From positions 1-14,907 of the forward strand of contig JASHRR010001078.1 in NCBI GenBank assembly GCA_030037185.1: a stretch of 14,907 nucleotides of DNA, written 5' to 3'. This document shows, in pieces, positions 1,606-14,907 of this stretch (positions are counted from its first letter, which is position 1; every line of letters begins with the position of its first letter). This stretch comes from Xanthobacteraceae bacterium (GTDB lineage Bacteria; Pseudomonadota; Alphaproteobacteria; Rhizobiales; Xanthobacteraceae). The notes under the pieces are model-generated. The model saw only the letters and a program-made list of their open reading frames with translations. It had not been told where the DNA came from and searched no databases. Made by a program: the position numbers and the translations under genes.

Positions 1606-3369
1606 ATGAGAAAGCTCTTTATGTCGACGGCTCTGATCACTTTGGCAGCCTGCGGAGCGTTATCTCGGGCACCTGCAGCCGACATGTCATTTGAGCGCGC
1701 TCTCAATGCAGACCGTGAGCCGCAGAACTGGCTGCTGCATCACAAGAACTATCAGGGCCACCGGTTCTCGGCGTTGCGCGAGATCAACACCGGTACGGTC
1801 GGCAGACTGCGACTTGCCTTCACGGTCGGACTCGGCGGACTACAGTCGGGCGGCCGCTACGCCCAAGGCAATCTCGAGGCGACGCCCCTCGTCGATGACG
1901 GCATGATGTACATCCCGGACGGTTGGGGCTCCGTCTATGCCATCGATGTGTCGAGCGGCAAGAAGGGCGAGATCAAATGGAAGTTCGATCCTGGCGTCGA
2001 CCGCGCCTGGGCGGGTGACGTTGCGTGCTGCGGCGTCAACAATCGCGGCGTCGCACTGTGGAAGGACAAAGTCATCTCGATCGCCCTCGACGGCCGCATC
2101 TTTGCGCTCAATCGCGCGACCGGTGAAGTGATATGGGAGCGCAAGGTGGCCGAGCCGGCGCTGGGCGAGACCGTGACGCTTGCCCCGCTCGTTGTTCGCG
2201 ACCTCGCCATCATCGGATCGGCCGGAGGCGAATTCGGCATTCGCGGGTGGATCGACGCGACCGACCTCAACACTGGCCAGCAGGCGTGGCGCACTTATAC
2301 GATCCCCGGCGCCGGGGAGCCCGGCAATGAGACCTGGAAAGATGGCAAAGAGCACTGGAAGCACGGCGGCGCATCAGTTTGGGTCACGGCGACCTACGAT
2401 CCGGAGACCGAGACGATCTATCAGGGCATCGGAAATGCCGGTCCCGATTATGACCCCGAATACCGGCCCGGCGACAACAAGTGGGCTGCGAGCGTGCTGG
2501 CGCTCAATCCCAATAATGGCAAGATCAAGTGGGGGTTCCAATACACGCCCAACGACCCCTACGACTATGACGAAATTTCCGAGCACCAGATCATCAATGC
2601 CAAGATCAACGGCGAGGACCGCAAGCTGGTGGTGCACGGCGCGCGTAACGGCTTCTACTACGTCCTTGACCGCGTCAACGGTGCCTTCGTGACCGGCAAG
2701 CAATACGTCGATCAGTTGACCTGGACGAAGGGACTCGACCCCAAGACCGGCCTGCCGCTTGATTACGATCCGGCCAAGGACGTGCAGCCCTATGTCGCCG
2801 GCAGCCACCCCTCGCGCGCCAATCCGGTGGCGATGCGCTGCCCGTCGACGCCGGGCGGCAAGAATTGGGAACCGGCGGCGTATAATCCCGAATTGAACTT
2901 GATCTATATCCCGTCAAGCGAGGGCTGCAACCAGCTTGAAGGCAGGGTGCAGGTGGACTTCGCCGATCAGGGCGGCACCGTGCAGCCGCGCGAACGGTTC
3001 ACCGGCGGTGCCGGCAAGGTGCTGGAGCAGACCACCGGCAGCATCAAGGCGCTCGATCCGGTCAGCGGCGAAACCAAGGCGGTGGCGCGCAGCGATCTGC
3101 CGAACTGGTCGGGCGTGCTGGCGACCGGCGGCAATCTGGTCTTCACCGGGCTGTGGGAGGGCGCGCTTGTCGCCTATGACGGAAAGACCTTGCAAGAGCT
3201 GTGGCGGTTCGACACCGGTTGCGGCGTGGTAGCGCCGCCGATCAGCTACGCGGTCAATGGCAAGCAGTACGTCGCTGTCGCGGCCGGCCCAAAATGGAAC
3301 GCGGCCAACAAACCGGCGGCGCTGAAATACGCCAATGCCTGCTCAATGGTTTACGTGTTCACGCTTTGA
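1606..3369 (+). CDS. PQQ-dependent alcohol dehydrogenase, methanol/ethanol family, predicted lanthanide type (copy 1)
   Basis: This 587-residue periplasmic quinoprotein would oxidise a primary alcohol or aldehyde, passing electrons to a cytochrome c. The family opening is clear (PQNWLLHHKNYQGHRFSAL, residues 39-57), followed by repeated eight-bladed propeller tryptophan-docking segments. The vicinal disulfide over PQQ is C141-C142. Metal ligands by alignment to methanol dehydrogenase are E209 (GGEFG), N277 (GNAGP) and catalytic D320 in TPNDPYDYDE, with R347 (ARNGF) as active-site arginine. D322, two residues after the catalytic aspartate, occupies the position that is Asp in lanthanide-dependent XoxF/PedH enzymes and usually Ala or Ser in calcium enzymes. 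The signal peptide covers about residues 1-25. LAAC at 13-16 resembles a lipobox, so lipoprotein anchoring is possible. No C-terminal heme domain is present, so an external cytochrome is needed. The ATG follows GGGAGGAGG. The substrate is unknown. Confidence 0.93.
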   Translation: MRKLFMSTALITLAACGALSRAPAADMSFERALNADREPQNWLLHHKNYQGHRFSALREINTGTVGRLRLAFTVGLGGLQSGGRYAQGNLEATPLVDDGMMYIPDGWGSVYAIDVSSGKKGEIKWKFDPGVDRAWAGDVACCGVNNRGVALWKDKVISIALDGRIFALNRATGEVIWERKVAEPALGETVTLAPLVVRDLAIIGSAGGEFGIRGWIDATDLNTGQQAWRTYTIPGAGEPGNETWKDGKEHWKHGGASVWVTATYDPETETIYQGIGNAGPDYDPEYRPGDNKWAASVLALNPNNGKIKWGFQYTPNDPYDYDEISEHQIINAKINGEDRKLVVHGARNGFYYVLDRVNGAFVTGKQYVDQLTWTKGLDPKTGLPLDYDPAKDVQPYVAGSHPSRANPVAMRCPSTPGGKNWEPAAYNPELNLIYIPSSEGCNQLEGRVQVDFADQGGTVQPRERFTGGAGKVLEQTTGSIKALDPVSGETKAVARSDLPNWSGVLATGGNLVFTGLWEGALVAYDGKTLQELWRFDTGCGVVAPPISYAVNGKQYVAVAAGPKWNAANKPAALKYANACSMVYVFTL

Positions 3370-3625: not shown

Positions 3626-5389
3626 ATGACAAAGTTTCTTGTTGCGACGGCCGTGGTCGCTTTGGCGGCTTCGGGCGCGCTGTCGGGCGCTGATGGCGCC
3701 GACATGACCTTCGAGCGGGCTGTTAATGCCGACCGCGAGCCGCAGAACTGGCTGTTGCACCACAAAAATTACCAGGGCCATCGATTCTCCGCGCTCCGCG
3801 AGATCAACACCAACACGGTCGGCGCGCTGCGGCTTGCCTTCACGGTCGGCCTTGGCGGACTGCAGGCCGGCGGGCGCTACGCCAACGGCGATCTCGAAGC
3901 GACGCCCCTCGTTGATGACGGCATGATGTACATTCCTGACGGCTGGGGCTCGGTCTATGCAATCGACGTGTCGAGCGGCAAGCAGGGTGAGATCAGGTGG
4001 AAGTTCGACCCCGGCGTCGACCGCGTATGGGCGGGCGATGTCGCCTGCTGCGGCGTCAACAATCGCGGGGTCGCGTTGTGGAAGGACAAGGTGATCTCGA
4101 TTGCGCTCGACGGACGCATCTTTGCGCTCAATCGCGCCACCGGCGAAGCGATTTGGGAACGCAAGACGGCGGAGCCGGCGCTTGGCGAGACAGTAACGCT
4201 CGCGCCGCTGGTTGTGCGTGATCTCGCCATCATCGGATCTGCTGGCGGCGAGTTCGGCATCCGTGGCTGGATCGATGCAACCGACCTCAACACCGGCATG
4301 CAGGCTTGGCGCACCTTCACGATCCCGGGCGTCGGCGAGCCCGGCCACGACACCTGGAACGACGGCAAGGACCACTGGAAGCATGGCGGCGGGTCGATCT
4401 GGGTGACGGCCACCTACGACAAGGATACCGACACCATTTACCAGGGAGTGGGCAATGCCGGCCCGGACTTCGACGCCGAGTACCGGCCCGGCGACAACAA
4501 ATGGGCCGCCAGCGTTCTGGCGCTCGATCCAAACAGCGGCAGGATCAAGTGGGGATTCCAGTACACGCCAAACGACCCTTATGACTACGACGAGATTTCC
4601 GAGCACCAGATCATCAATGCGGAAGTCAACGGCGAGGATCGCAAGCTGCTCGTCCACGGCGCGCGCAATGGCTTCTACTACGTGCTCGACCGCATCAGCG
4701 GCGCCTTCGTCGCCGGCAGGCAATATGTCGATGAGCTCAACTGGACACGCGGCCTCGATCCCAAGACCGGCCGGCCCCTCGACTACGATCCCAACAAGGA
4801 GGTGCAGACCTACGTCGCGGGCACGTCCGCGACCCGCGCCAAACCGACCGGCTTCCGCTGCCCGCATGTGACGGGCGGCAAGAACTGGGAACCCGCTGCC
4901 TATAATCCCGCATTGAACCTGATCTATATTCCCTCGACCGAGGGATGCAGCGAGATCAACGGCGTGACACAGGCCGACTTCGAGGACCAGGGCGGGACGC
5001 ACAAGTGGCGCGACCGGTTCACCGGCGGCGGCAGCAAGAACCGCACCCAGCCAACCGGCAGCATCAAGGCGCTCGACCCGGTGACGGGCGAGACCACGGC
5101 AATTGCCCGCACCGACCTGCCGAACTGGTCGGGCGTGCTGGCGACCGGCGGTAATCTTGTCTTCAGCGGCCTGTGGGAGGGCGCACTCGTCGCCTACGAC
5201 GGCAGGACGCTCAACGAGCTGTGGCGTTTCGACACCGGATGCGGCTTCAGAGCGCCCCCCATCAGCTACGCGGTCAACGGCAAGCAATACATCGCCATCG
5301 CGGCCGGCCCGCACTGGACCGGGGGTACCAGACCGGCGGCGCTGAAATACGCCAACACGTGCTCGATGGTGTATGTGTTCGCGCTGTAA
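3626..5389 (+). CDS. PQQ-dependent alcohol dehydrogenase, methanol/ethanol family, predicted lanthanide type (copy 2)
   Basis: This 587-residue paralog of the preceding gene aligns without a single gap; I count about 106 substitutions by hand, or roughly 82% identity. Every active-site feature is kept at the same number: C141-C142 vicinal disulfide, E209, N277, D320 with the lanthanide-type D322, and R347. The signal peptide runs to about residue 25 (SGADGA before DMTFE). Position 16, a lipobox-like Cys in copy 1, is Ser here, so this copy should be a soluble periplasmic protein. Differences between the copies cluster at residues 401-414, 441-474 and 563-569, leaving the metal and PQQ sites untouched. 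This suggests diverged substrate, partner or surface contacts. The start ATG follows GAGG (3617-3620) at five bases. A tandem duplication is the simplest origin. Confidence 0.93.
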   Translation: MTKFLVATAVVALAASGALSGADGADMTFERAVNADREPQNWLLHHKNYQGHRFSALREINTNTVGALRLAFTVGLGGLQAGGRYANGDLEATPLVDDGMMYIPDGWGSVYAIDVSSGKQGEIRWKFDPGVDRVWAGDVACCGVNNRGVALWKDKVISIALDGRIFALNRATGEAIWERKTAEPALGETVTLAPLVVRDLAIIGSAGGEFGIRGWIDATDLNTGMQAWRTFTIPGVGEPGHDTWNDGKDHWKHGGGSIWVTATYDKDTDTIYQGVGNAGPDFDAEYRPGDNKWAASVLALDPNSGRIKWGFQYTPNDPYDYDEISEHQIINAEVNGEDRKLLVHGARNGFYYVLDRISGAFVAGRQYVDELNWTRGLDPKTGRPLDYDPNKEVQTYVAGTSATRAKPTGFRCPHVTGGKNWEPAAYNPALNLIYIPSTEGCSEINGVTQADFEDQGGTHKWRDRFTGGGSKNRTQPTGSIKALDPVTGETTAIARTDLPNWSGVLATGGNLVFSGLWEGALVAYDGRTLNELWRFDTGCGFRAPPISYAVNGKQYIAIAAGPHWTGGTRPAALKYANTCSMVYVFAL

Positions 5390-5545: not shown

Positions 5546-7300
5546 ATGCGCATCGGAGGTGGTTTTCTAGCGCTTGTCGCTGCCGGAATTCTTGTCCTCG
5601 CGGCATCGACGTTGAGCCGGGCGCAGGCGCCCTCGACGCTTCTGATCAGAGGCGCGACGATCATCGACGGGCTTGCTGACGCCCCCATTCGCGATCGCTC
5701 GCTGGTGATCGAGGGCAACATCATTCGCGGCCTCGTGCCGGCCGATGCACCGGCACCGCCGGACGCGCACGTGCTCGACCTTGCCGGAAAATTCGTCATT
5801 CCGGGACTGTTCGATTCCCATGTGCACTGGGAGCCGTTCATGGGCGAGCTGTTGGTCAATCACGGTGTGACCTCGATCCTTGCGCTCGACAATGTCCCCA
5901 AGGCATTGCGCGACAGGAGCCAGGACGCGCAGGATGTTCCGCGACTTTTCCATAGTGGACCGCGTCCGCAATTCACGGCCAACTCGACCGACGGCGAGAT
6001 CAGCGCGGCGATCGGGATCTGGCTCAAATCCGAACCCGATCTGGCGTGGTTCCCGCAATACAATGACAGGTTTTCCCGCGCCTACAAGTTCGCCGCCGAG
6101 GAGGCCCACAAAGCTGGCTTTCTGGTTTTCGGCCATACCGATGACGCGCCTGCCTCCATACGCGATGGCATGGACATCGTCGAGCATGTGTGGGGCTACG
6201 CGGAGGCCGTCATGGCGCCGAAGGAGCTGCGGTCGTTTCAGGAAGGCAGGTTGCTGACCTGGGCGACGCAACTCAACGATTGGAGCAAGCTCGATGCCAT
6301 GATCGCGGAGGCGGTTCGCCGCGGCATCTACCTCAATCCCACCATGATCTACGAATGGGGCGGCTTGAGCCGGCGCGCCGCTGAGCGGGAGCTTGAGGAC
6401 TACCGCACGCTCAGCAATACCGATCTCGTCTATTTTCCCCGCAACATCGCTGACAGCATCCTTGCCCGGCATCGGCAGATCAAGAATTTCTCTTCGCGCT
6501 ACGACAGCATGCCGTGGGTTCACAAGCTGCCGGCACAAGATCGCACGGAATTCGAGACCGGGTACAAAAACGTGCGCGAGTTCAACAGCAGGTGGGTCGC
6601 GGCCGGGGGCAAGCTTCAAGCCGGCACCGATACCATTACCGGCGGGATTCCCGGATTGGCGCTGCATCACGAGATGGAGATGCTGGTCGAGTCGGGCTTG
6701 ACACCGATGCAGGCGTTGAAAGCGGCGACCTCATGGTCGGCCGAACTTGTGGAGGGCAAGAACAAAGTGCGCGGCCCAGCCAGGGTCGGCTCCATTCGCG
6801 CCGGCAATTTTGCCGACCTTGTCGTGGTGAGTGCAGATCCCTTGAGCAACATTTCCAACACGAAGAAGATCGAGCGGGTGATGAAGAACGGCCGATGGGT
6901 CGAACTCGGCTATCATCCCGAATATTTTACGTTTGTTCAGCCTGCCCGCGCGCTTGCGGCAGCGACTTTCGCACCCGCGATCAGCTCTGCCCAGCCCAGC
7001 TCCGTAACGGCCGGGTCCGGACCCGTCCACGTGGTGTTGGAAGGGAGCGGGTTCATGATGACGTCGCTGGTTCGCGTCAACGGCGTATCGGTCAAGACGA
7101 TTTTCCGCGACCCGCGGCACATCGAATTCGATCTCCCGGCGCGTGCCATCGAGCGCGCGACGCCCAATCCCTACTCCGCGCCAGGACCAGCGCAAAACAC
7201 CGGGATCATCGGCTACCGCGCGGTTTCGATCGATGTCTTTAATCCGCCCCCGGAGGGCGGGACCTCGAACACTGTGCAACAAGCGGTCCTGCCGAACTAA
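5546..7300 (+). CDS. Exported amidohydrolase with C-terminal IPT/TIG-like domain
   Basis: This is a 584-residue secreted metal-dependent hydrolase of the imidazolonepropionase/prolidase-like amidohydrolase branch. The signal peptide is residues 1-28 (cleavage after AQA). The beta-sandwich start LLIRGATIIDG is followed by H92-x-H94 (DSHVHWE), H197 (FGHTDD), H214 (VEHVWG) and D362 (AGTDT), the usual metal and catalytic positions; K161 is the likely bridging lysine but is uncertain. The barrel closes at about residue 455 with the typical GSIRAGNFADLVVV segment. Residues 478-584 form an extra domain (SAQPSSVTAG, GSGF, RVNG, NPPPEGGTSN) that reads like an IPT/TIG immunoglobulin-like fold, unusual for this family. 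GGGAGG at 5533-5538 sets the start. It lies 156 bases behind the dehydrogenases on the same strand, so co-expression is plausible. The substrate is unknown. Confidence 0.85.
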   Translation: MRIGGGFLALVAAGILVLAASTLSRAQAPSTLLIRGATIIDGLADAPIRDRSLVIEGNIIRGLVPADAPAPPDAHVLDLAGKFVIPGLFDSHVHWEPFMGELLVNHGVTSILALDNVPKALRDRSQDAQDVPRLFHSGPRPQFTANSTDGEISAAIGIWLKSEPDLAWFPQYNDRFSRAYKFAAEEAHKAGFLVFGHTDDAPASIRDGMDIVEHVWGYAEAVMAPKELRSFQEGRLLTWATQLNDWSKLDAMIAEAVRRGIYLNPTMIYEWGGLSRRAAERELEDYRTLSNTDLVYFPRNIADSILARHRQIKNFSSRYDSMPWVHKLPAQDRTEFETGYKNVREFNSRWVAAGGKLQAGTDTITGGIPGLALHHEMEMLVESGLTPMQALKAATSWSAELVEGKNKVRGPARVGSIRAGNFADLVVVSADPLSNISNTKKIERVMKNGRWVELGYHPEYFTFVQPARALAAATFAPAISSAQPSSVTAGSGPVHVVLEGSGFMMTSLVRVNGVSVKTIFRDPRHIEFDLPARAIERATPNPYSAPGPAQNTGIIGYRAVSIDVFNPPPEGGTSNTVQQAVLPN

Positions 7301-7319
7301 AGGAGCGCTTGGATCACAC

Positions 7320-7368
7320 CGGCATTCCTTGCGAAATGCGCACGGCCACAAGGGCCGCCCTGATGCCG
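7320..7368. terminator. Possible structured 3' region between convergent genes
   Basis: CGGCAT (7320-7325) pairs with ATGCCG (7363-7368) and encloses a small hairpin CGGCC/GGCCG (7343-7357). It begins 20 bases after the amidohydrolase stop, where a terminator is expected because the next gene is convergent. No T-run is present, so this is a weak candidate. Confidence 0.3.
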
Positions 7369-7541
7369 CTGAAAGGATCGACGCGAAGCGGCGCATGCTC
7401 CGCCGCTGGCGCTTCAAATTCTGCCTGACATCGTGAGTATCTCGACCCGCTCAACCGTGACAAGCCGCATGACGAACAGCAGCACGGCCCGCGAGCCGCC
7501 GGATTTCTGGCACAGCGTGCCGCGGGCAGCGTCCAGGTTAC

Positions 7542-7910
7542 CTAATCGTCCAACAGGGGGCCGATAGCCATGATCAGGTCGCAGCGGAACTCGTCAGCCG
7601 CTCTGCCGTTTTGATCTTCTACCCGATGGTAACAAGCACTATTCCCAAATGGTCTGTTTTCGAACTTTCCGTTGCGGTCCGTAACCACCTCAGCCCGAAT
7701 CTTGTTACCGAGAAAATTATACAGCGTCTTTGCCTTGGCCGCATTGCAGGAAAAGATGATCACCGGGCCATCGTCCACCACCGAATTGGTGGCAACGGCT
7801 TCGGTAATGCAATCGGTCAGTCCCGCCACCGTCAACGTTCGCACATTTATTTGGCCATAACAACAAGTGGCAACCAGCACAAGGCAAGAGACCACGGCCA
7901 ATCTACCCAT
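7542..7910 (-). CDS. Small exported protein of unknown function
   Basis: The product is 122 residues when started at the ATG whose first base is 7910. A GTG twelve bases upstream is possible, but the GGAGG at 7916-7920 (minus strand) sits five bases before this ATG and decides the choice. Residues 1-20 are a signal peptide (MGRL, then a hydrophobic VVSCLVLVATCC core ending YGQ). The mature part keeps four cysteines, at residues 34, 55, 93 and 109, enough for two disulfides in the periplasm. I recognise no family. It is the last of three same-strand genes, 41 bases after the ferredoxin-flavoprotein gene, so it probably belongs to that operon. Confidence 0.65.
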   Translation of the reverse strand: MGRLAVVSCLVLVATCCYGQINVRTLTVAGLTDCITEAVATNSVVDDGPVIIFSCNAAKAKTLYNFLGNKIRAEVVTDRNGKFENRPFGNSACYHRVEDQNGRAADEFRCDLIMAIGPLLDD

Positions 7911-7915
7911 CTGTG

Positions 7916-7920
7916 CCTCC
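7916..7920 (-). promoter_or_regulatory. Shine-Dalgarno that decides the start of the small exported protein
   Basis: On the minus strand GGAGG is five bases from the ATG at 7910. The upstream GTG at 7922 would place this motif inside the coding sequence. Confidence 0.6.
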
Positions 7921-7951
7921 ACTCCCGGTGTCTGCCCGGGCGGCGCGCGAT

Positions 7952-9256
7952 CTACGCCGTGCCGTATTTGGTTTCCACCTCGATGCCAACGTCGCGGAGA
8001 AAGTCGGTTGGCAGAACCCCACCAGCGCAGACGATGACCACATCGTTTCTCAGTCGCACTCGCCGTCCGTTCTGCTCGATGTCGACGTCGTGGCGACCGA
8101 TCCTCTTGACATTGGATTGGAGCAAAACGTTGAGGCAGCCGGAGCTGCGCGCGGCTTCCACCTCCTCGCGATTCTTCACCTTGGCGCGCGAAAACGCTTC
8201 GCTCCGATGGGACAGAGTGACAGTGGTGCCAGACTGCGCGGCGAGGCTGAGCGCTGCCTCAAGGGCACTGTCGCCGCCACCGACCACCAGCACATGGTGC
8301 CGCCGGTATTGTTCGGGGTCAACCAGGCGATACACCACTTTGGCTTGCTGTTCGCCTTCCACGTTGAGCTTGCGCGGCGTTCCGCGCCGACCGATGGCGA
8401 GCAACACGCAGGCGGTCAAGTAGGAGCCGCGCCTCGTGTGCACCTCGAATGCGGCACCGCGTCGGACAATAGTTTTAACCTCCTCGCCGTATTTGATCTT
8501 CAGATCGCTCCGTCGAAGGATATCGTTCCAAGCCTTGAGCAGCTTTTCCTTGCTCACCGTTCTGAATTTGAGCTTGCCGCCGAGCGGCAGAGTTGCCGGT
8601 GCGGTCATGACGACCTTGCCGCGCGGATAGTGGGCGACGGTGCCGCCAAAATCCTCCTGCTCGAGGGTCAAATAACGAAGCTGGTTCTTCTCGGCGGCAA
8701 GACTGGCCGAAAAGCCCGCCGGACCGGCGCCGACGATGATCACGTCGTAACCTTGAGGCGGCCTGGTGCGGTGCTGTTTTCGCATCGATTCGATGGCTTG
8801 GCTGCCCTGCTCGATCGCATTGCGAACGAGACCCATGCCGCCCAACTCTCCGGCAATGAAGATCCCCGGAACGTTTGTTTGGAAATCCGAGCTGATATGC
8901 GGGATGTCGACGCCCCGCTGCTCGGTGCCGAAAACAAGCGTGATCGCGTCGTAAGGGCAAGCCGTGCGGCAAGCGCCGTGGCCGATGCAATGGGTTGGTT
9001 CAACGAGCTCGGCTTTCCCGTTGATCATGCCGATAATATCCCCCTCGGGACAGGCGCCGACACAGGCGCCACAGCCCAGACATTTCGCCGGGTCGATTTT
9101 CGGATGAATTGAGGCCGGCTCGGTGAGCCCGGCCTCGGCCGCCGCCGCCTTGGTCGCCCGGCTTCGTGCCTCCCCGCGGATGCGCGACACCACATAACCG
9201 GTCCAGATCAGCGCCATTGCCACCGCGTACACGGCAATTAGCGGAGTAAAGCCCAT
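7952..9256 (-). CDS. Membrane-anchored ferredoxin/FAD/NAD(P) oxidoreductase, permuted thioredoxin-reductase fold
   Basis: The protein has 434 residues. Residues 5-23 are one membrane helix followed by a basic stretch (R25, R27, R31, R33, K36), which predicts a cytosolic body. A two-cluster ferredoxin domain follows: C59, C62, C65, C69 is canonical, but the second set is C90, H93, C96, C100, with His in place of the second Cys. Residues 117-157 (NVPGIFIAGELGG...RNAIEQG) match the segment that normally ends a thioredoxin-reductase-like FAD domain, yet here they precede the FAD motif GAGPAG (176-181). The NAD(P) motif GGGDSALEA is at 326-334. The protein ends after AGGVLPTDFLRDVG, where the family's last segment would follow. 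No CxxC redox pair occurs between the domains, so it is not a disulfide reductase. It likely moves electrons between NAD(P)H, FAD and Fe-S, and its neighbours suggest heme proteins as partners. Confidence 0.87.
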   Translation of the reverse strand: MGFTPLIAVYAVAMALIWTGYVVSRIRGEARSRATKAAAAEAGLTEPASIHPKIDPAKCLGCGACVGACPEGDIIGMINGKAELVEPTHCIGHGACRTACPYDAITLVFGTEQRGVDIPHISSDFQTNVPGIFIAGELGGMGLVRNAIEQGSQAIESMRKQHRTRPPQGYDVIIVGAGPAGFSASLAAEKNQLRYLTLEQEDFGGTVAHYPRGKVVMTAPATLPLGGKLKFRTVSKEKLLKAWNDILRRSDLKIKYGEEVKTIVRRGAAFEVHTRRGSYLTACVLLAIGRRGTPRKLNVEGEQQAKVVYRLVDPEQYRRHHVLVVGGGDSALEAALSLAAQSGTTVTLSHRSEAFSRAKVKNREEVEAARSSGCLNVLLQSNVKRIGRHDVDIEQNGRRVRLRNDVVIVCAGGVLPTDFLRDVGIEVETKYGTA

Positions 9257-9311
9257 CGGATTAGAGGTTTCCCTTGAGTTTCGATTGTGATTTCACCGGA
9301 TTCGATCACGG

Positions 9312-10811
9312 TTACTTGAACAGCCGCGCAATCTCCCCGTGTCCCGACGCGACCGCAACGTCAGCGGCCGTTTCGCGCTTCTTATTTCTGAGCGTTTGGT
9401 TGGCGCCGGCCAGCAAGAGTGCCTTGACGACGTCGAGCCGTCCCTCTTGAGCGGCGATCATCAGTGCGTTGTATCCGACGTTGTTGCGCACGTCGGTTCG
9501 TGCGTGCCGTTTCAGCAGCAGAGCAACGATGTCGCTAGTGCCGGATTTCGCGGCGAGTATCAGGGGCGTATTTCCTGCCATCGTGTGCGCGTCGACATCC
9601 GCGCGATCGCCGATCAGCAGTCGGGCCGCCTCGGCGTTGCCGTTTTCAAGCGCTCGCAGCAGCGGCGTTCGCCCCTCTGTGTCGGCGATGTGCTGGTCGG
9701 CGTTATGTTTCAGCAGCGCTAATATGGCGCCGCTGTTTCCGTGGTCGGCCGCAAACCACATGGCCGTCCGACGTCCTTCGTCCACCGCGTCAACTTGCGC
9801 GCCGGTGGCGATCAGCGATTCCACCAGACGGGTTGGACAGGCCGCCGCCGCAACCATCAGCGGCGTGGTGCCGTGATCAAGGACCACCCCGACCTCGGCG
9901 CCGCGGTTGATCAGAAGGGTCACGACCTGTTGATGACAGCCGCGCGTTGCCAGTGTTAACGCGGTGTCGCCGCTGCGGGCCCGGAAAGCTAAGCCTGCTC
10001 CTGTGCGAAGCAAGCCTCCGACGATGTCGGCATGGCCGCCGGCCGCGGCAACCATGAGCGGCCGTTCGCCGGCGCGGTTTTCTGCATTGATGTCCGCACG
10101 CGCCGCCAAAAGCGCATTCACCACGTCAGTCTTGCCCGCCGACGCTGCGCGCAGCAGCGCGGTGTTGCCGTCATCGTCGCGGGTCGAGACGTCTGCGCCG
10201 GCCGCGAGCAGGCTCTCTACGGCGGCGATCTGACCGCGCCAGGCAGCGTCCAGCAGCTCCGTTTGACGTTCCGCCGCCGTCGCTCGCAGCACCGGCATTT
10301 CGGTCTGTGCTGGCCGGCGCGTCGCCTCGCGCGCGGCGGCCGCGTTCGGTTCGACGGTGCGGCGCGCAGAGATTTCCGCAAGACGCCTGGAGGCGCCGTC
10401 GTATCCCTGCGAGGCCGCCTTTCGCAGCCAGATTTTGGCAGAGCCAACATCTGGCGCCGCTCCGCGCCCCGCCAGATACATCATGGCGAGGTTGAATTGC
10501 GCGTTGGCATGGTTTTGTTCAGCCGCAGCCTTCATCCATCGGAAAGCCAAGAGGTCGTCCTGAGGCAGGCCGCGCCCAAGACGATAGAGCGAGGCCAGCC
10601 GGTATTGTGCTTCCGGGTTTCCAGACTCGGCGAACTTGCGAAGGACGGTCGCCGCGCGGCCGAACTCTCCGGTACGGGCGGCCTGATCAATTGCATTCGT
10701 GACGGCGGTTTCGTTACCGGTAACCTGCGCCAACGACGCGGCGGTGCCGGCAATTGCGACGGCGAGCGCTGGTAACAGCCGGTGCGCGGATTTGAATCTG
10801 GGTGAGGCCAT
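9312..10811 (-). CDS. Exported Sel1-repeat plus ankyrin-repeat protein
   Basis: This 499-residue protein is probably periplasmic. I start it at the ATG whose first base is 10811, because the next residues form a signal peptide (RFKSAHRLLPALAVAIAGTA, cleavage near SLA-Q at 28). A longer frame to 10931 only adds 40 residues unlike any leader. Two Sel1/TPR-type repeats lie at about 64-137 (GNPEAQYRLASLYRLGRG; HANAQFNLAMMYLAGRG). After an Ala/Arg/Glu linker (150-180), about ten ankyrin repeats run from 183 to the end, with motifs such as DGNTALLRAA, AGNTPLILAA and GYNALMIAA. Both repeat types bind proteins and no enzyme domain is visible. It is first of three minus-strand genes, 55 bases before the ferredoxin-flavoprotein gene, so it may serve as an assembly or docking factor for that system. 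Confidence 0.85.
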   Translation of the reverse strand: MASPRFKSAHRLLPALAVAIAGTAASLAQVTGNETAVTNAIDQAARTGEFGRAATVLRKFAESGNPEAQYRLASLYRLGRGLPQDDLLAFRWMKAAAEQNHANAQFNLAMMYLAGRGAAPDVGSAKIWLRKAASQGYDGASRRLAEISARRTVEPNAAAAREATRRPAQTEMPVLRATAAERQTELLDAAWRGQIAAVESLLAAGADVSTRDDDGNTALLRAASAGKTDVVNALLAARADINAENRAGERPLMVAAAGGHADIVGGLLRTGAGLAFRARSGDTALTLATRGCHQQVVTLLINRGAEVGVVLDHGTTPLMVAAAACPTRLVESLIATGAQVDAVDEGRRTAMWFAADHGNSGAILALLKHNADQHIADTEGRTPLLRALENGNAEAARLLIGDRADVDAHTMAGNTPLILAAKSGTSDIVALLLKRHARTDVRNNVGYNALMIAAQEGRLDVVKALLLAGANQTLRNKKRETAADVAVASGHGEIARLFK

Positions 10812-11072
10812 GCGGTGGTGTCGAGCCGAGATCTCCACGATAATGAAGCGCCAAGCAGGGGCGGGGTGAGGGGGACGCACCGGATGAGCAGACCGCCAAC
10901 CCCCCACGACTCCTCGCATCCGATTCGTCACGGCGGGCTTCCTCGCATTCGATTGCGGCAGAATATTAGAGGGCGGAGCATTTGTGCATTAGCGGAGCAT
11001 TTGTGCATGAGTTGAGGACCCAGCTGGGAGCGCGTCATAAAACGGTCAGTCTTTGTTCAAGCTGTCGCCCCG
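10812..11072. promoter_or_regulatory. Divergent regulatory region of the two redox gene groups
   Basis: About 260 bases separate the minus-strand ankyrin-flavoprotein group from the plus-strand cytochrome group, so promoters for both should be here. The part near 10930-11040 is relatively AT-rich and contains a 17-base direct repeat (10973-11008). No -35/-10 pair was identified with confidence. Confidence 0.5.
10973..11008. repeat. Tandem 17-bp direct repeat in the divergent region
   Basis: GCGGAGCATTTGTGCAT occurs at 10973-10989 and again, identical, at 10992-11008, separated by two bases, giving a 19-bp period. Within each copy GCA...TGC gives partial dyad symmetry (GCATTTGTGC). Spacing near two helical turns suits a dimeric regulator bound twice on about the same face, but a recent local duplication is equally possible. 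Confidence 0.7.
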
Positions 11073-12134
11073 GTGAGAAGATCGGATCACCGCAATTCGA
11101 CGCTAGACACGCCCGCTCCCAAAAACGGCGCCTGGTCTCGCGCCAGAGACGACGATGACCGTTTCGTAATGTCACAGCTGCTCCTCCAAGACGCGAACAT
11201 TCGTCGGCGGCTCGATGCTAATGGAGATCGAGCGGTCCTTCGGTGGCGCGCCCGGACGCCGGCAACGCCAGATTCTGCCCGTACTGGGCGTCGCTCGGCG
11301 AATATCTTATCAAAAGTTTTTACCGTCGCGATCATCCTCGTGCTTTGGGTCGGCTGGCTCAACCGCGACGACAATGGCCTGACGCCGGACGGCGGCGTCG
11401 GTTATTGGCTCGGGATTGCGGGAAGCAGCCTTATGCTGGTTCTGCTGCTCTATCCTTTGCGCAAACGCGTGCGGGCGTTGCGGGTAATCGGGACAATCGC
11501 CTTCTGGTTTCGCACCCATATGGTGCTTGGCGTGCTCGGACCGGTGTTGGTTCTATGGCACGCAAACTTCCACCTGGGCTCGATCAACAGCAGCGTCGCC
11601 CTCGTGACGATGCTCGTCGTCGCGGCAAGCGGCATTGTCGGACGGTATCTTCACAGCAAGATCCACCTTGATCTGCACGGGCGCAAAGCCAAGGCGCGGG
11701 AGGTCTTCGCCAATGCTGACGACGAACTGAGCGGCCTTATCGGCGCGGATCCGCGCGCTGCCGGCCGCGTGATCGCAGGATTGAATGCCTTTGCGCGGCT
11801 TGGTACGGCCAACCCCAGGGGCCTGCTCGCCGGCTTGGGTTTGGTGCTGGTGATCGGCTGGCAAGGCGTTGTTGTTCGTAAGCGGTTGGTAGCCTTGGCC
11901 CGGCACGCAATCGCGGTCGACGGAAAGCGGCATGGACGGTCGAAAAAGATTCAGAGCCAGCGGCTTGCCAGGGTCACGGACTTTGTCACCCAACATATTG
12001 GCGCTGCCAAAAAGGCTGCGACCTTTGCATTTTACGAGCGTCTTTTCAGGCTTTGGCACGTTCTTCACGTGCCGCTGTTCATCCTGCTCGTTATCGTGGC
12101 ACTCATTCACGTCTTCGCGGCGCATTTCTTTTGA
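11073..12134 (+). CDS. Membrane protein, probable di-heme b-type cytochrome
   Basis: The protein has 353 residues from the GTG at 11073. An ATG at 11169 (residue 33) is an equally likely start, since the first 32 residues are polar and neither start has a good ribosome site. Hydrophobic segments lie at about 80-96, 111-128, 146-162, 174-192, 251-268 and 328-349. Two of them carry histidine pairs exactly 14 residues apart: H149/H163 and H332/H346. This spacing is the hallmark of bis-histidine heme b ligation between two helices in cytochrome b and ferric-reductase-like proteins, so two stacked hemes are predicted. H167, H194, H329 and H351 lie nearby. No flavin or NAD domain is fused. The stop codon is 11 bases before the start of the 18-heme cytochrome gene, so the two are surely one transcript. 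It probably carries electrons across the inner membrane to that protein. Confidence 0.75.
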   Translation: MRRSDHRNSTLDTPAPKNGAWSRARDDDDRFVMSQLLLQDANIRRRLDANGDRAVLRWRARTPATPDSARTGRRSANILSKVFTVAIILVLWVGWLNRDDNGLTPDGGVGYWLGIAGSSLMLVLLLYPLRKRVRALRVIGTIAFWFRTHMVLGVLGPVLVLWHANFHLGSINSSVALVTMLVVAASGIVGRYLHSKIHLDLHGRKAKAREVFANADDELSGLIGADPRAAGRVIAGLNAFARLGTANPRGLLAGLGLVLVIGWQGVVVRKRLVALARHAIAVDGKRHGRSKKIQSQRLARVTDFVTQHIGAAKKAATFAFYERLFRLWHVLHVPLFILLVIVALIHVFAAHFF

Positions 12135-12145
12135 GTGGGGGCTCA

Positions 12146-13519
12146 TTGTTGAGCCGGCAACTCACACACGCCTTTGTGCTGCACATCTGCGTCATCATCG
12201 CAAGCGCCGCGATGTCAGGCGCACGTTCGCAGAATTTGTTCGAACAGCTTGTCACTCCTGGCCCGGTGATCGCCGGACATGCCAAGCTTGAACAAGACTG
12301 CAGCAACTGTCACAAGCCGTTCTCGCGAGGGTCGCAAACCCAACTTTGCCTGGCTTGCCATAAAGAAACAGCGCGCGATCGGCAGTTGGTGAGGGGGATT
12401 CACGGGCGCCAAACGGCTGCAGCGAAACAGGAATGCACCCATTGTCACACCGATCACATGGGGCGACATGCTGACATCGTCCTGCTTGACCGCGAGACAT
12501 TCAATCACACCTCGACGAATTTTGAACTTCGGGACGCCCATAAGGCGGTGCAATGCGACGGCTGCCACGCACAGAATGTAAAGTTTCGCGACGCGCCGGG
12601 ACGCTGCTTCGATTGTCACAAAGCAGACGATCCGCACAAGGGGCGTCTGGGGGAAGGGTGCGACAATTGTCATGACGAAGCCACATGGGCTCGCACCAAG
12701 GCGTTCGACCATGACAAGACCAAGTTTCCGCTGCAAGCCGCGCACCGCAATGTGGCGTGCTTGTCGTGCCATGTTGGCGAACGCTACACCGGAATCGGCA
12801 CGGCGTGCGTCGATTGCCACAGGATTCAGGATGTTCATGGCGGACGCTACGGCGCCAAGTGCGAAACCTGCCACGACCAGAACAAGTGGATGACGATCCG
12901 CTTTAATCATGACAAGGACACAAAATTTCCACTCAGGGCCGCACATGCGAAGGTCAAGTGCGATGCCTGCCACACGGGCGATCTGTATCGCGACAAGCTG
13001 TTGACGACATGTGTGTCTTGTCATCGCAAGGATGACCGGCACGAGGGCCAGCTTGGTGTTCGGTGTGAGAGTTGCCATGGCGAGGACAACTGGCGCCGCG
13101 TGGTGTCGTTCGACCACGATGTCACGCGATTTCCGCTGATCGGACGTCACACCGTGGTGACGTGCGAGGAATGCCACCGCTCATTGCGGTTCAAAGACGC
13201 GGCGTTGGCGTGCGCCTCCTGTCACCGCGACCAGCATCATGAGGGACGTTTGGGGGCCAATTGCGCACTCTGCCACAACCCGAATGGTTGGGCGCGCTGG
13301 CTCTTCGATCACGATAAGCAGACCCGCTACCCGTTGACCGGGGCCCACCGCGGCCTCGATTGCCAAGCCTGCCACACCACCAAGAACGTCACCAAGATTA
13401 CGCTGTCGACGAGCTGCTATGCGTGCCACCAGAAGGATGACGTGCATCGGGGCGCGCTCGGACAGACCTGCGAACGCTGCCATGTGACGACTTCGTTCAA
13501 ACAGGTGAGCAAGCGGTAA
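12146..13519 (+). CDS. Periplasmic 18-heme cytochrome c (cytochrome c3-like triheme modules)
   Basis: The product has 457 residues from a TTG at 12146; a second TTG at 12149 is equivalent. The frame is open back to 12053, but that extension overlaps the upstream membrane gene, while GGGGG at 12137-12141 and a following signal peptide (AFVLHICVIIASAA, cleavage near RSQ) favour the TTG. Eighteen CxxCH motifs start at residues 52, 68, 97, 137, 154, 172, 205, 221, 239, 272, 289, 307, 340, 356, 373, 406, 424 and 442. After an N-terminal group of three there are five tandem modules of about 67 residues, each opening with a variant of FDHDKTKFPL...AH and holding three hemes. Extra conserved histidines (FDHD, DDxH, AH) can supply distal ligands. 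It probably acts as a multi-heme electron wire or reservoir, fed by the adjacent cytochrome b. Confidence 0.93.
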   Translation: MLSRQLTHAFVLHICVIIASAAMSGARSQNLFEQLVTPGPVIAGHAKLEQDCSNCHKPFSRGSQTQLCLACHKETARDRQLVRGIHGRQTAAAKQECTHCHTDHMGRHADIVLLDRETFNHTSTNFELRDAHKAVQCDGCHAQNVKFRDAPGRCFDCHKADDPHKGRLGEGCDNCHDEATWARTKAFDHDKTKFPLQAAHRNVACLSCHVGERYTGIGTACVDCHRIQDVHGGRYGAKCETCHDQNKWMTIRFNHDKDTKFPLRAAHAKVKCDACHTGDLYRDKLLTTCVSCHRKDDRHEGQLGVRCESCHGEDNWRRVVSFDHDVTRFPLIGRHTVVTCEECHRSLRFKDAALACASCHRDQHHEGRLGANCALCHNPNGWARWLFDHDKQTRYPLTGAHRGLDCQACHTTKNVTKITLSTSCYACHQKDDVHRGALGQTCERCHVTTSFKQVSKR

Positions 13520-13846
13520 GCGGGCACATGCGCCCCATGCGCGGAATAATACTTCCGGGGCCCTCAAGGTGCCAAGTATTCAGTTCATGTGGCGCATCGT
13601 TTTTCGTTCCGGCTTGAACACCGAGCAGCCGAACATGGCGAGGTCGTTTTTCCGCCGGCATATTGCTGAATCCGATGCACCGTTTCTGCCTTTTCGCGGT
13701 TTTGCAAACGGCTGTTCGTTATCAATGCTGTTGCAGCCAAGGCCGCAAGGCGGCGCCGTCGAGTATTTTCTTTGTCGCCGCCAATTCGCGACAGGCGCTG
13801 CGCATTGTCTGCGTTCTGCTGAAGATCGCCGTGAAATGGTCTGATC

Positions 13847-13870
13847 AGATTCGTGATGTGGTCCGAATCT
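13847..13870. repeat. 7-bp inverted repeat
   Basis: AGATTCG (13847-13853) and CGAATCT (13864-13870) are perfect arms around a 10-base spacer; past one mismatch, two more base pairs extend the stem. It could be an operator or the first stem of a structured RNA. Confidence 0.45.
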
Positions 13871-13885
13871 CATGCCATTAAACCT

Positions 13886-13906
13886 GGGCACGATAGCTTC
13901 GTGCCC
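13886..13906. terminator. 8-bp GC-rich hairpin, possible terminator or RNA stem
   Basis: GGGCACGA (13886-13893) and TCGTGCCC (13899-13906) are perfect arms with a 5-base loop TAGCT. It stands 366 bases after the 18-heme cytochrome stop, far for a terminator, and no T-run follows. This makes a structural RNA or processing role equally likely. Confidence 0.4.
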
Positions 13907-13922
13907 TGAGGGCGGTGGCGCA

Positions 13923-13936
13923 GCCTTCCAGAAGGC
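13923..13936. repeat. Short hairpin GCCTT/AAGGC
   Basis: GCCTT (13923-13927) and AAGGC (13932-13936) close a CCAG loop. Alone it is unremarkable; it is listed because it is the third stem in a 90-base run of hairpins. Confidence 0.3.
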
Positions 13937-14227
13937 AGGGGATGGTCATGGTTTGTGCAGGTTCAATTCGCCAGAATGGCAACAGCCGGAAATTGTTCGG
14001 GCCGCCGCCTGCTAACTAGGCAAGGCGCGCGCGCTCCGAACCGACCGCTCAAACGTGTCATGAGCGCGTACCGGTAAAATCTGAAATCACAAAAAGGCGG
14101 ACGCCGGTCGACGACGCTGCGTGCGTGTTGTCGTTGCCGCCGCGGAGCCAGAGGGCCTCGACGCAACGTCACTGTCGTTCTCCTCAGTGCTCGAGCCCCC
14201 AGCGGAGTTTGCAAGGTAGCGCGGCGA

Positions 14228-14907
14228 ATGGGAAGAATCTTATTGAGATTGGCGAGCCTGATGCTGCCGATCACTGCGGCGGCTATGCTCGGCGCCGCGG
14301 TGGCGAATGCGCAAAACGCATCAACTTCACGTTTCAACCACGATCCGACCGGGTTTCCGCTGACCGGCACCCATGTCTACATTCCTTGCGCGTCGTGCCA
14401 CATCAATGCGCGCTACAAGAACACACCGCGGGCGTGCTTTGGTTGCCACAACGGCATGACCGCGCCGGGCGCGGCATCGGTGTTGTCGCATCCGAGGACG
14501 ACGAATTATTGCGAAGGTTGCCACAAGACGACGACGTGGCGCGATTACGGGTTCATCGATCACGTCCAGGCACTCGGACCTTGTGCCAACTGCCACAACA
14601 ACAAGACCGCCGAGGGCAAGACGCCGAACCATCCGGTCACCCAGGCGTCCTGCAATACCTGCCATTTCAACACGGTGTCGTGGGCGGGCGGGATATTACC
14701 GCCCGGCACGACCCAGTCCCCGGCGCCGGCCGCGACGACGCCTGCGCCCACGACGAAGACGCCTGCCGCAACGGGGACGACGCCTGCAGCCACAGCGACG
14801 CCGCCGCGAACGGCTGCGATCACTCCCGGCGCAACGTCACCGCCGGGCACAAGCTTGCCAAAGCCGCCAAGCGCTCAAACGTCCCCAAGCGGGCCGAAAG
14901 CCCCAAC
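14228..14907 (+). CDS. Exported pentaheme-or-more cytochrome c with Thr/Pro/Ala tail (3' truncated)
   Basis: An open frame from the ATG at 14228 runs off the window end without a stop, giving 226 visible residues. The signal peptide is residues 1-29 (MGRILLRL, hydrophobic LPITAAAMLGAAV, cleavage after ANAQ or ANA). Five CxxCH heme motifs start at residues 54, 70, 95, 119 and 142. The segment FNHDPTGFPLTGTH (36-49) before the first heme is the same module opener seen in the 18-heme protein, so the two are related. CANCHNNKTAEGKTPNH (118-134) is of the type found repeated in large multiheme cytochromes. From about residue 158 heme motifs cease and a Thr/Pro/Ala-rich stretch begins, including a 7-residue repeat. 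Such a tail may be a flexible linker to another domain outside the window. A weak AAGGTAG lies at 14213-14219. Confidence 0.88.
   Translation, partial: MGRILLRLASLMLPITAAAMLGAAVANAQNASTSRFNHDPTGFPLTGTHVYIPCASCHINARYKNTPRACFGCHNGMTAPGAASVLSHPRTTNYCEGCHKTTTWRDYGFIDHVQALGPCANCHNNKTAEGKTPNHPVTQASCNTCHFNTVSWAGGILPPGTTQSPAPAATTPAPTTKTPAATGTTPAATATPPRTAAITPGATSPPGTSLPKPPSAQTSPSGPKAP
14737..14799. repeat. 21-bp (7-residue) tandem repeat in the Thr/Pro linker
   Basis: GACGCCTGC recurs at 14737, 14758 and 14779, exactly 21 bases apart, encoding TPA-starting heptads at residues 171, 178 and 185 (TPAPTTK, TPAATGT, TPAATAT). It is a low-complexity linker that probably varies in copy number between strains. 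Confidence 0.65.

Follow-up and report, generated by a model that had tools for sequence, protein, structure and literature searches.

A divergently encoded NAD(P)H-type flavoprotein as candidate cytosolic electron entry of a PCC3-type porin-cytochrome conduit in a Xanthobacteraceae bacterium

The window analyzed here is a stretch of 14,907 nucleotides from a Xanthobacteraceae bacterium (contig JASHRR010001078.1), and its part from 7542 to 14907 contains divergent gene groups on the plus and minus strands that encode a membrane cytochrome b, multiheme cytochromes (MHCs) and a membrane-anchored flavoprotein. As judged from its sequence, this part of the window encodes the inner half of a conduit of the PCC3 type. 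PCC3 is a putative porin-cytochrome system described by He et al. in 2017 (PMC5566968; statements on the literature here and below refer to the accessible parts of the papers cited), and the cytochrome and porin part of the conduit has thus been known since then. The new component is the flavoprotein, which was found to be a near-obligate cytosolic partner of this known conduit; no mention of it together with PCC3 was found in the accessible literature, closed-access papers and supplements aside. We give a probability of roughly 0.6 to the reading that the region encodes a PCC3-type trans-envelope conduit in which the divergently encoded flavoprotein would be the cytoplasmic entry point for electrons running outward. 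A near-obligate partner of NAD(P)H type on the cytosolic side would also predict the direction of PCC3 and, if this is true, many soil and marine Proteobacteria could discharge electrons from NAD(P)H to the exterior, bypassing quinones, CymA and bc1.

Gene content, motifs, predicted topology, a circular permutation of the flavoprotein, co-occurrence and synteny were computed. For the sample of loci, genome contigs were scanned with an alignment of the cytochrome b, which gave 107 confirmed matches, the best 80 of which were kept; domain searches in Pfam and NCBIfam were read at E 0.001. The region contains the following features:

7542..7922, minus strand: small exported protein, outside the core (no family match; relatives in loci L001 and L004)
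7952..9256, minus strand: membrane-anchored NAD(P)H-type flavoprotein, 434 aa (Pfam, NCBIfam, PDB/Foldseek, AlphaFold2 (AF2) model)
9312..10811, with an open reading frame (ORF) to 10931, minus strand: protein with Sel1 and ankyrin repeats, accessory (Pfam, hydropathy, BLAST)
10812..11168, no strand: divergent intergenic region, if the ATG starts are correct (sequence)
11169..12134, plus strand: five-helix membrane cytochrome b, predicted di-heme, equated with the PCC3 inner membrane protein (IMP) (alignment, residue counts, topology, AF2 model)
12146..13519, plus strand: 18-heme periplasmic cytochrome (18 CXXCH motifs, Cytochrome_C7, module spacing)
14228..14907, plus strand, open at the window end: 5′ part of a putative extracellular giant multiheme cytochrome (alignment to locus L112)

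All five ORFs of the original prediction were recovered, and the Fe-S/FAD/NAD(P) protein, the di-heme cytochrome b and the 18-heme cytochrome described there were confirmed at the level of domains and motifs. Going away from the divergent gap, the minus strand carries the genes for the Sel1-ankyrin protein, the flavoprotein and the small exported protein, in that order, and the plus strand those for the cytochrome b and the 18-CXXCH cytochrome, then a 708-bp gap and the further cytochrome ORF from 14228. The unit had earlier been taken to end at 13519, which has to be corrected, as the latter ORF belongs to it too. A shared promoter region had been proposed as well: the divergent gap exists and may by its position be a shared control region, while no promoter-like site was found in 10812-11168, and the counts of promoter-like sites over 7300-14907 were at chance level.

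The flavoprotein was present in 68 of the 80 cytochrome b loci. Six of the 12 loci without it have less than 1.5 kb of upstream DNA (L023, L026, L038, L056, L064 and L071), and two more, L034 and L051, hold an orphan cytochrome b in genomes (G009 and G010) that carry a second cytochrome b, a flavoprotein and a porin. A multiheme cytochrome was the next gene after the cytochrome b in 70 of 76 sequences (75 loci and the window, with a called cytochrome b); L028 and L053 (genomes G005 and G006) have flavoprotein, ankyrin protein and cytochrome b without an adjoining cytochrome gene, and the porin lies on the same contig about 15-21 kb off. The recurrent order was a flavoprotein divergent from a cytochrome b, a periplasmic MHC, a giant MHC, a protein of about 820 aa (46 loci) and a protein of about 200 aa (14 loci). 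Since this arrangement recurs in dozens of genomes, it is not due to chance. The locus labels were mostly Alpha- or Gammaproteobacteria or subgroups of these; one bin each was labelled as Acidobacteriota, Desulfuromonadales and Planktophila. In the 820-aa family, 37 of the 46 members have a C-terminal Phe or Tyr, which is typical of outer-membrane barrels. Four members were scanned, and SPOR was above the cut-off in two and TPR-like matches, mostly below the cut-off, were found in all four. We regard this family as the probable counterpart of the porin described for PCC3 (PMC5566968).

The same association was seen at genome level. Among 369 gammaproteobacterial genomes (centre genome of the set included), the cytochrome b was found in 42, the flavoprotein in 43 and both in 41; without the centre genome the counts were 40/1/2/325 (both, cytochrome b only, flavoprotein only, neither), for which the Fisher p of 6e-50 is descriptive only and overstates the significance, because the genomes are related by descent. 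The flavoprotein was found without cytochrome b in G112, on a 3.5-kb contig, and in G192, where the contig ends 0.2 kb past an 11-CXXCH ORF. Exactly two strong matches to each of the two proteins were detected in five genomes (G047, G050, G115, G315 and G332). Among 385 alphaproteobacterial genomes (centre genome included), the same four have cytochrome b and flavoprotein. The porin was found in 45 of the 49 genomes with cytochrome b and/or flavoprotein, when a partial one in G316 is counted, and in none of 31 controls. Within the genus of G001 the flavoprotein occurred in only 6 of 175 genomes, so that the system is patchy there, and all six have a cytochrome b with an adjoining 18-CXXCH gene; two of them, with 20 kb examined, have a giant cytochrome and a porin, and the other four have a porin elsewhere in the genome. 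Flavoprotein and cytochrome b distances were correlated over 28 clusters (r 0.63, with none of 2000 permutations as high). As the correlations of flavoprotein and cytochrome b with the porin over 18 clusters were about equally high (0.65 and 0.66), this shows a shared history and not a specific contact. By synteny and co-occurrence, flavoprotein, cytochrome b and multiheme cytochrome thus form one system.

The flavoprotein has a single hydrophobic segment (residues 6-24) followed by the Lys/Arg-rich stretch IRGEARSRATK, and by the positive-inside rule its main domain is predicted to be cytosolic, in agreement with the singly anchored, cytosol-facing protein proposed originally. Behind this transmembrane (TM) helix it consists of a domain with two [4Fe-4S] motifs (50-109; Pfam Fer4 at 52-101) and a FAD/NAD(P) domain resembling YpdA and thioredoxin reductase (TrxR) (Pfam Pyr_redox at 170-428). 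The latter domain is circularly permuted, the C-terminal FAD segment (about 110-160) preceding the N-terminal part (170-434): in a hidden Markov model alignment, residues 163-430 correspond to 9-266 of the thioredoxin reductase chain 3f8d and 125-156, weakly, to its C-terminal 275-310, and in a segment search residues 108-168 matched 239-285, in the C-terminal part of a second thioredoxin reductase, 5nii (E 0.005). Foldseek ranked YpdA (7a76) first, with 25-26% identity over the FAD/NAD(P) domain, and the AF2 model has a pLDDT of 87. An assignment as YpdA bacillithiol disulfide reductase was rejected (NCBIfam TIGR04018, 152 bits against a cut-off of 339.9), and so was one as thioredoxin reductase, since the redox-active CxxC of the NAD(P) domain is lacking; Cys occurs only at 59, 62, 65, 69, 90, 96, 100, 283, 374 and 410, and none of these makes up a disulfide pair of the CxxC kind within the FAD/NAD part. 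In 29 aligned flavoprotein sequences, R351 and R357 of the nucleotide-binding region were kept throughout. Likewise invariant (29/29) was a His at position 93 (window 8978-8980, minus strand), at the place where the canonical form of the second [4Fe-4S] motif has its second Cys; this suggests a His-ligated second cluster. In 3 of the 29, the first motif has Ser for its second Cys.

The cytochrome b gene probably starts at ATG 11169 and ends at 12134; the alternative GTG at 11073 is disfavoured because it adds 32 residues that are absent from the closest homologue (P0121). Its product contains five hydrophobic helices, and Lys and Arg are concentrated in the N-terminus, the loop 98-109 and the stretches 158-217 and 244-297, with none in the last five residues. 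An N-in/C-out topology is predicted, with one His pair near the cytosol and the other near the periplasm, and a sixth hydrophobic stretch (218-236) is read as part of a cytosolic helical domain between TM4 and TM5. H117/H131 and H300/H314 were invariant in 33 of 33 sequences and are predicted to form two bis-His heme-b sites; S154, G155, G158 and W296 were also invariant, and W113 was kept in 32. With WX3HX13H on TM3 and TM5 and SGXXG on TM4, the protein carries the motifs reported for the IMPs of PCC3 and PCC4; the PCC3 IMP is described as a protein of about 300 aa with five TM helices and these motifs at the same places (PMC5566968). The AF2 model is all helical (pLDDT 85.7). No Pfam or NCBIfam match was obtained for the window protein at E 0.001, and Ferric_reduct (PF01794) was not among its listed matches at E 1.

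Directly downstream, the c-type protein encoded by 12146-13519 contains exactly 18 CXXCH motifs; its open frame begins at 12053, and the start is probably a TTG near 12146. The motifs fall into an irregular triplet and five c7-like triheme modules in which they recur regularly, at spacings of about 16-18, 17-18 and 33 residues; the protein and the periplasmic MHC of L112 are 59% identical over 445 positions. Among the 70 cytochromes that adjoin a cytochrome b (window included), 48 have 21 CXXCH, 13 have 18 and six have 24, and single cases have 25, 20 and 6, the last at a contig end; most counts are multiples of three. The ORF from 14228 contains five CXXCH followed by a Pro/Thr/Ala-rich stretch before the window ends. 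Its residues 4-156 can be aligned, with 43% identity and E 8e-37, to 10-160 of a giant cytochrome with 101 CXXCH from L112, so that it is most likely the start of an extracellular cytochrome. In L112, on an 8.4-Mb contig of the genus Bradyrhizobium, this cytochrome has 3038 aa and is followed by a 1089-aa porin-family protein.

The L112 ORF (7004-16120) is whole; further giant cytochrome ORFs, both cut by the end of the available DNA, are those of L114 (6728-15309, at least 95 CXXCH) and L094 (11022-19001, at least 88). The largest numbers reported elsewhere, each in its own context, are 85 (PMC5566968, section 15) and 86 (PMC12133095). The contigs of L110, L111 and L113 break inside the giant cytochrome gene, the repeats of which are a probable cause of broken assemblies and of the system going unseen in draft genomes.

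The pairing of flavoprotein and cytochrome b was found again in a diverged sister system, which argues for the two as a module. Eight lower-scoring cytochrome b matches were obtained (E 7e-16 to 1e-20), and six were opened. In four of these (L099 3385-8417, L098 4303-9535, L103 4086-9001 and L104 3581-8616), the neighbor of the cytochrome b is a protein of about 800 aa with a match to the flavoprotein profile (E 1e-60 or better); this protein was not found in L096 and L097. The one scanned, from L099, combines a non-permuted FAD/NAD domain with two stretches predicted to bind cyclic nucleotide monophosphates (cNMP) and with a [4Fe-4S] dicluster at its C-terminus. The gene that flanks the cytochrome b on the opposite side encodes a 10-CXXCH protein, which in L099 begins with an FHA domain. 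The sister cluster is possibly a second-messenger-gated NAD(P)H electron conduit.

In the mechanism that we propose, NAD(P)H would reduce the FAD of the permuted YpdA-like domain, and the two [4Fe-4S] clusters would relay the electrons to the cytochrome b, first to its heme on the cytosolic side (H117/H300) and then to the one on the periplasmic side (H131/H314). From there they would go on to the 18-heme triheme-module cytochrome, which would carry them across the periplasm. The porin and the giant extracellular cytochrome would then hand them to an acceptor outside. In this scheme we infer that the cofactors are bound, that NAD(P)H is oxidized and that flavoprotein and cytochrome b touch each other, and likewise the direction and the acceptor. 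Its role could be that of a redox-balance valve or the reduction of extracellular oxidants, as a cross-envelope analogue of NADPH oxidase and ferric reductase. The net flow is expected to be outward because NAD(P)H is a strong reductant and because the cytochrome b would transfer charge without visible proton coupling. Such a flow would dissipate the membrane potential and would fit a redox valve or outside oxidants better than Fe(II) oxidation. The original prediction left the direction open, which on bioenergetic grounds is not supported: with NAD(P)H as partner, export would be downhill, and reduction of NAD(P)+ from outside would run uphill against both the redox span and the membrane potential. 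The complete NAD(P)H-to-periplasm path that it described stands as far as the core trio is one system, and falls as a self-contained inner-membrane route, the trio being the inner half of a PCC3 conduit that crosses the outer membrane too.

A number of observations weigh against the outward conduit with a flavoprotein entry, besides the relatedness of the genomes mentioned above. The cytochrome b occurs without flavoprotein in G011-G014 (loci L061, L032, L048 and L073), three of which also lack the porin, G013 having part of a porin at a contig edge. In several genomes a distance of about 4.5-11 kb separates flavoprotein and cytochrome b, or the two are on separate contigs. In G205, which has a cytochrome b, the flavoprotein match covers only 115 aa, and no porin was found in G107, G340, G112 and G584, where the contigs are 3.5-9 kb long. 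The score limits were fixed after both groups had been seen. For the cytochrome b, the fold comparison had no clear outcome and Ferric_reduct touched only one of the 33 sequences (E 0.009). Finally, one of the PCC3 copies of Sideroxydans CL21 showed a rise of its inner membrane gene with iron oxidation (PMC12442390). This last finding supports the model in which PCC3 is linked to quinones, as proposed in PMC5566968, where PCC3 is reported from some metal-oxidizing bacteria: the cytochrome b would exchange electrons with the quinone pool, taken up from Fe(II), Mn(II) or other donors. On this reading, the flavoprotein would be a side entry or a regulator. We regard this model as unlikely, since it leaves unexplained why a cytosolic flavoprotein of NAD(P)H type should occur nearly 1:1 with the cytochrome b, in copy number too. 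Most of the present hosts are not known to oxidize metals. In S. lithotrophicus ES-1, both PCC3 clusters were downregulated on Fe(II) (PMC8788666).

Two further explanations were weighed. Electron uptake could end at the flavoprotein, with NAD(P)+ or ferredoxin being reduced for CO2 or N2 fixation. The parts are reversible in principle, and the hosts include Thiodiazotropha (L026, L031 and L044-L046), which is autotrophic; many hosts are heterotrophs, though, and uptake would have to run uphill with no visible energy coupling, which makes it quite improbable. The idea that flavoprotein and cytochrome b deliver reductant for the maturation of the heme-rich cytochromes, and not for respiration, could explain why 37 loci have a family of CcmI/CycH type no more than nine genes away from the cytochrome b, and nine loci one of CcmF type (one member of each was identified by Pfam). 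These neighbors are not universal, the flavoprotein is devoid of a disulfide-reductase Cys pair, and the sister system also joins flavoprotein and cytochrome b to a 10-CXXCH protein, so that we hold maturation for the least probable of the explanations. The outward conduit with a flavoprotein entry can also be taken further, and it is conceivable, if rather doubtful, that PCC3 is a widespread two-membrane NADPH oxidase and not a metal-oxidizing uptake system, discharging to minerals, partner cells or O2. The flavoprotein would then feed electrons from NADPH, by way of a di-heme b protein akin to that of NADPH oxidases, into a continuous wire, which would consist of 18 and 101 CXXCH in one Bradyrhizobium-genus cluster, L112, and the flavoprotein-cytochrome b pair would be a reusable module that is also employed in a second system with cNMP-binding domains. 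With O2 as acceptor, superoxide formed outside the cell might aid hosts like Erythrobacter (strain SD-21 is the source of L049) in oxidizing Mn(II); a Mn(II)-oxidizing Erythrobacter sp. that has PCC3 is named in PMC5566968.

Of the five families that had been put together as one system, flavoprotein, cytochrome b and multiheme cytochrome form the core, to which the porin and the extracellular cytochrome have to be added, and the Sel1-ankyrin protein (BLAST match in at most 37 of the 80 loci) and the small exported protein are not part of it. The Sel1-ankyrin gene probably starts at ATG 10811, ahead of a segment that by hydropathy resembles a signal peptide (residues 52-70 of the long ORF to 10931), and its product is a probable periplasmic scaffold and a frequent accessory to the conduit. 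The ORF for the small protein had no Pfam or NCBIfam match, and among the ORFs of the 80 loci relatives were found only in L001 and L004; the latter, from Bradyrhizobium, lies at 193-570 on the minus strand, about 9 kb from the cytochrome b. Elsewhere in the window, 1606-3369 and 3626-5389 (plus strand) encode a tandem pair of pyrroloquinoline quinone (PQQ) alcohol dehydrogenase-type proteins with 82% mutual identity, for which no BLAST match was obtained in the 80 cytochrome b loci, and 5546-7300 (plus strand) encodes a member of the amidohydrolase family that carries a choice-of-anchor Z repeat domain at its C-terminus.

Compared with known systems, the region is closest to PCC3, the gene set of which comprises an IMP, a periplasmic MHC (median 21 CXXCH), an extracellular MHC (median 34, maximum 85) and a porin, and the IMP of which was modelled as possibly quinone-linked (PMC5566968). 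PCC3 has been listed as a candidate iron oxidase and was functionally unverified as of 2025 (PMC12442390). The region shares with it the IMP motifs and the periplasmic MHC beside the IMP (18 CXXCH here). Of an extracellular MHC, the window contains only a putative start with five CXXCH, and it has no porin, which is seen in relatives. The region differs in that the flavoprotein and the ankyrin protein are outside the published gene set. PCC4 has an IMP with the same helix and His pattern, and other redox proteins were noted beside the IMPs of PCC4 and of most porin-less MHC/IMP clusters (PMC5566968); such an extra protein probably reflects the same principle, namely a partner that serves the cytochrome b, and the sister system may be of this sort. 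An assignment of the window itself to PCC4, which has no extracellular MHC and periplasmic MHCs of 4, 5 and 10 hemes, was rejected because of the 18-CXXCH protein and the start of a giant MHC.

The route from the inner membrane over a periplasmic multiheme cytochrome and a porin to the surface resembles that of CymA/NapC with MtrCAB or MtoAB. No NapC/NirT-type domain was found at E 0.001 in the cytochromes or the cytochrome b, nor among the matches listed for the flavoprotein, and the originally claimed difference from the NapC/CymA and bc1 routes is upheld in that no such domain is among the matches listed. A decaheme DmsE/MtrA protein was likewise rejected (TIGR03508, 26.8 bits against a cut-off of 192.2), the cytochrome here being of the triheme-modular c7 kind. 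It shares its triheme c7 modules with the GSU1996-type nanowire cytochromes of Geobacter (weak PDB match to 3ouq, E 0.003), from which the cytochromes here differ in having about six (18 CXXCH), seven (21) or eight (24) modules. The FAD/NAD(P) domain of the flavoprotein can be aligned with YpdA and the ferredoxin-NADP reductase-like thioredoxin reductases, but its order is permuted, it shares one chain with a TM helix and two [4Fe-4S] motifs, and it lacks the disulfide Cys pair. In outline, the proposed conduit would resemble NADPH oxidase and ferric reductase (NOX/FRE) in using NAD(P)H, FAD and two hemes b to deliver electrons outside, whereas it differs from them in its separate flavoprotein with two Fe-S motifs and a YpdA/TrxR-type fold, in a cytochrome b that is not a recognizable Pfam ferric reductase, and in a putative heme wire across a second membrane.

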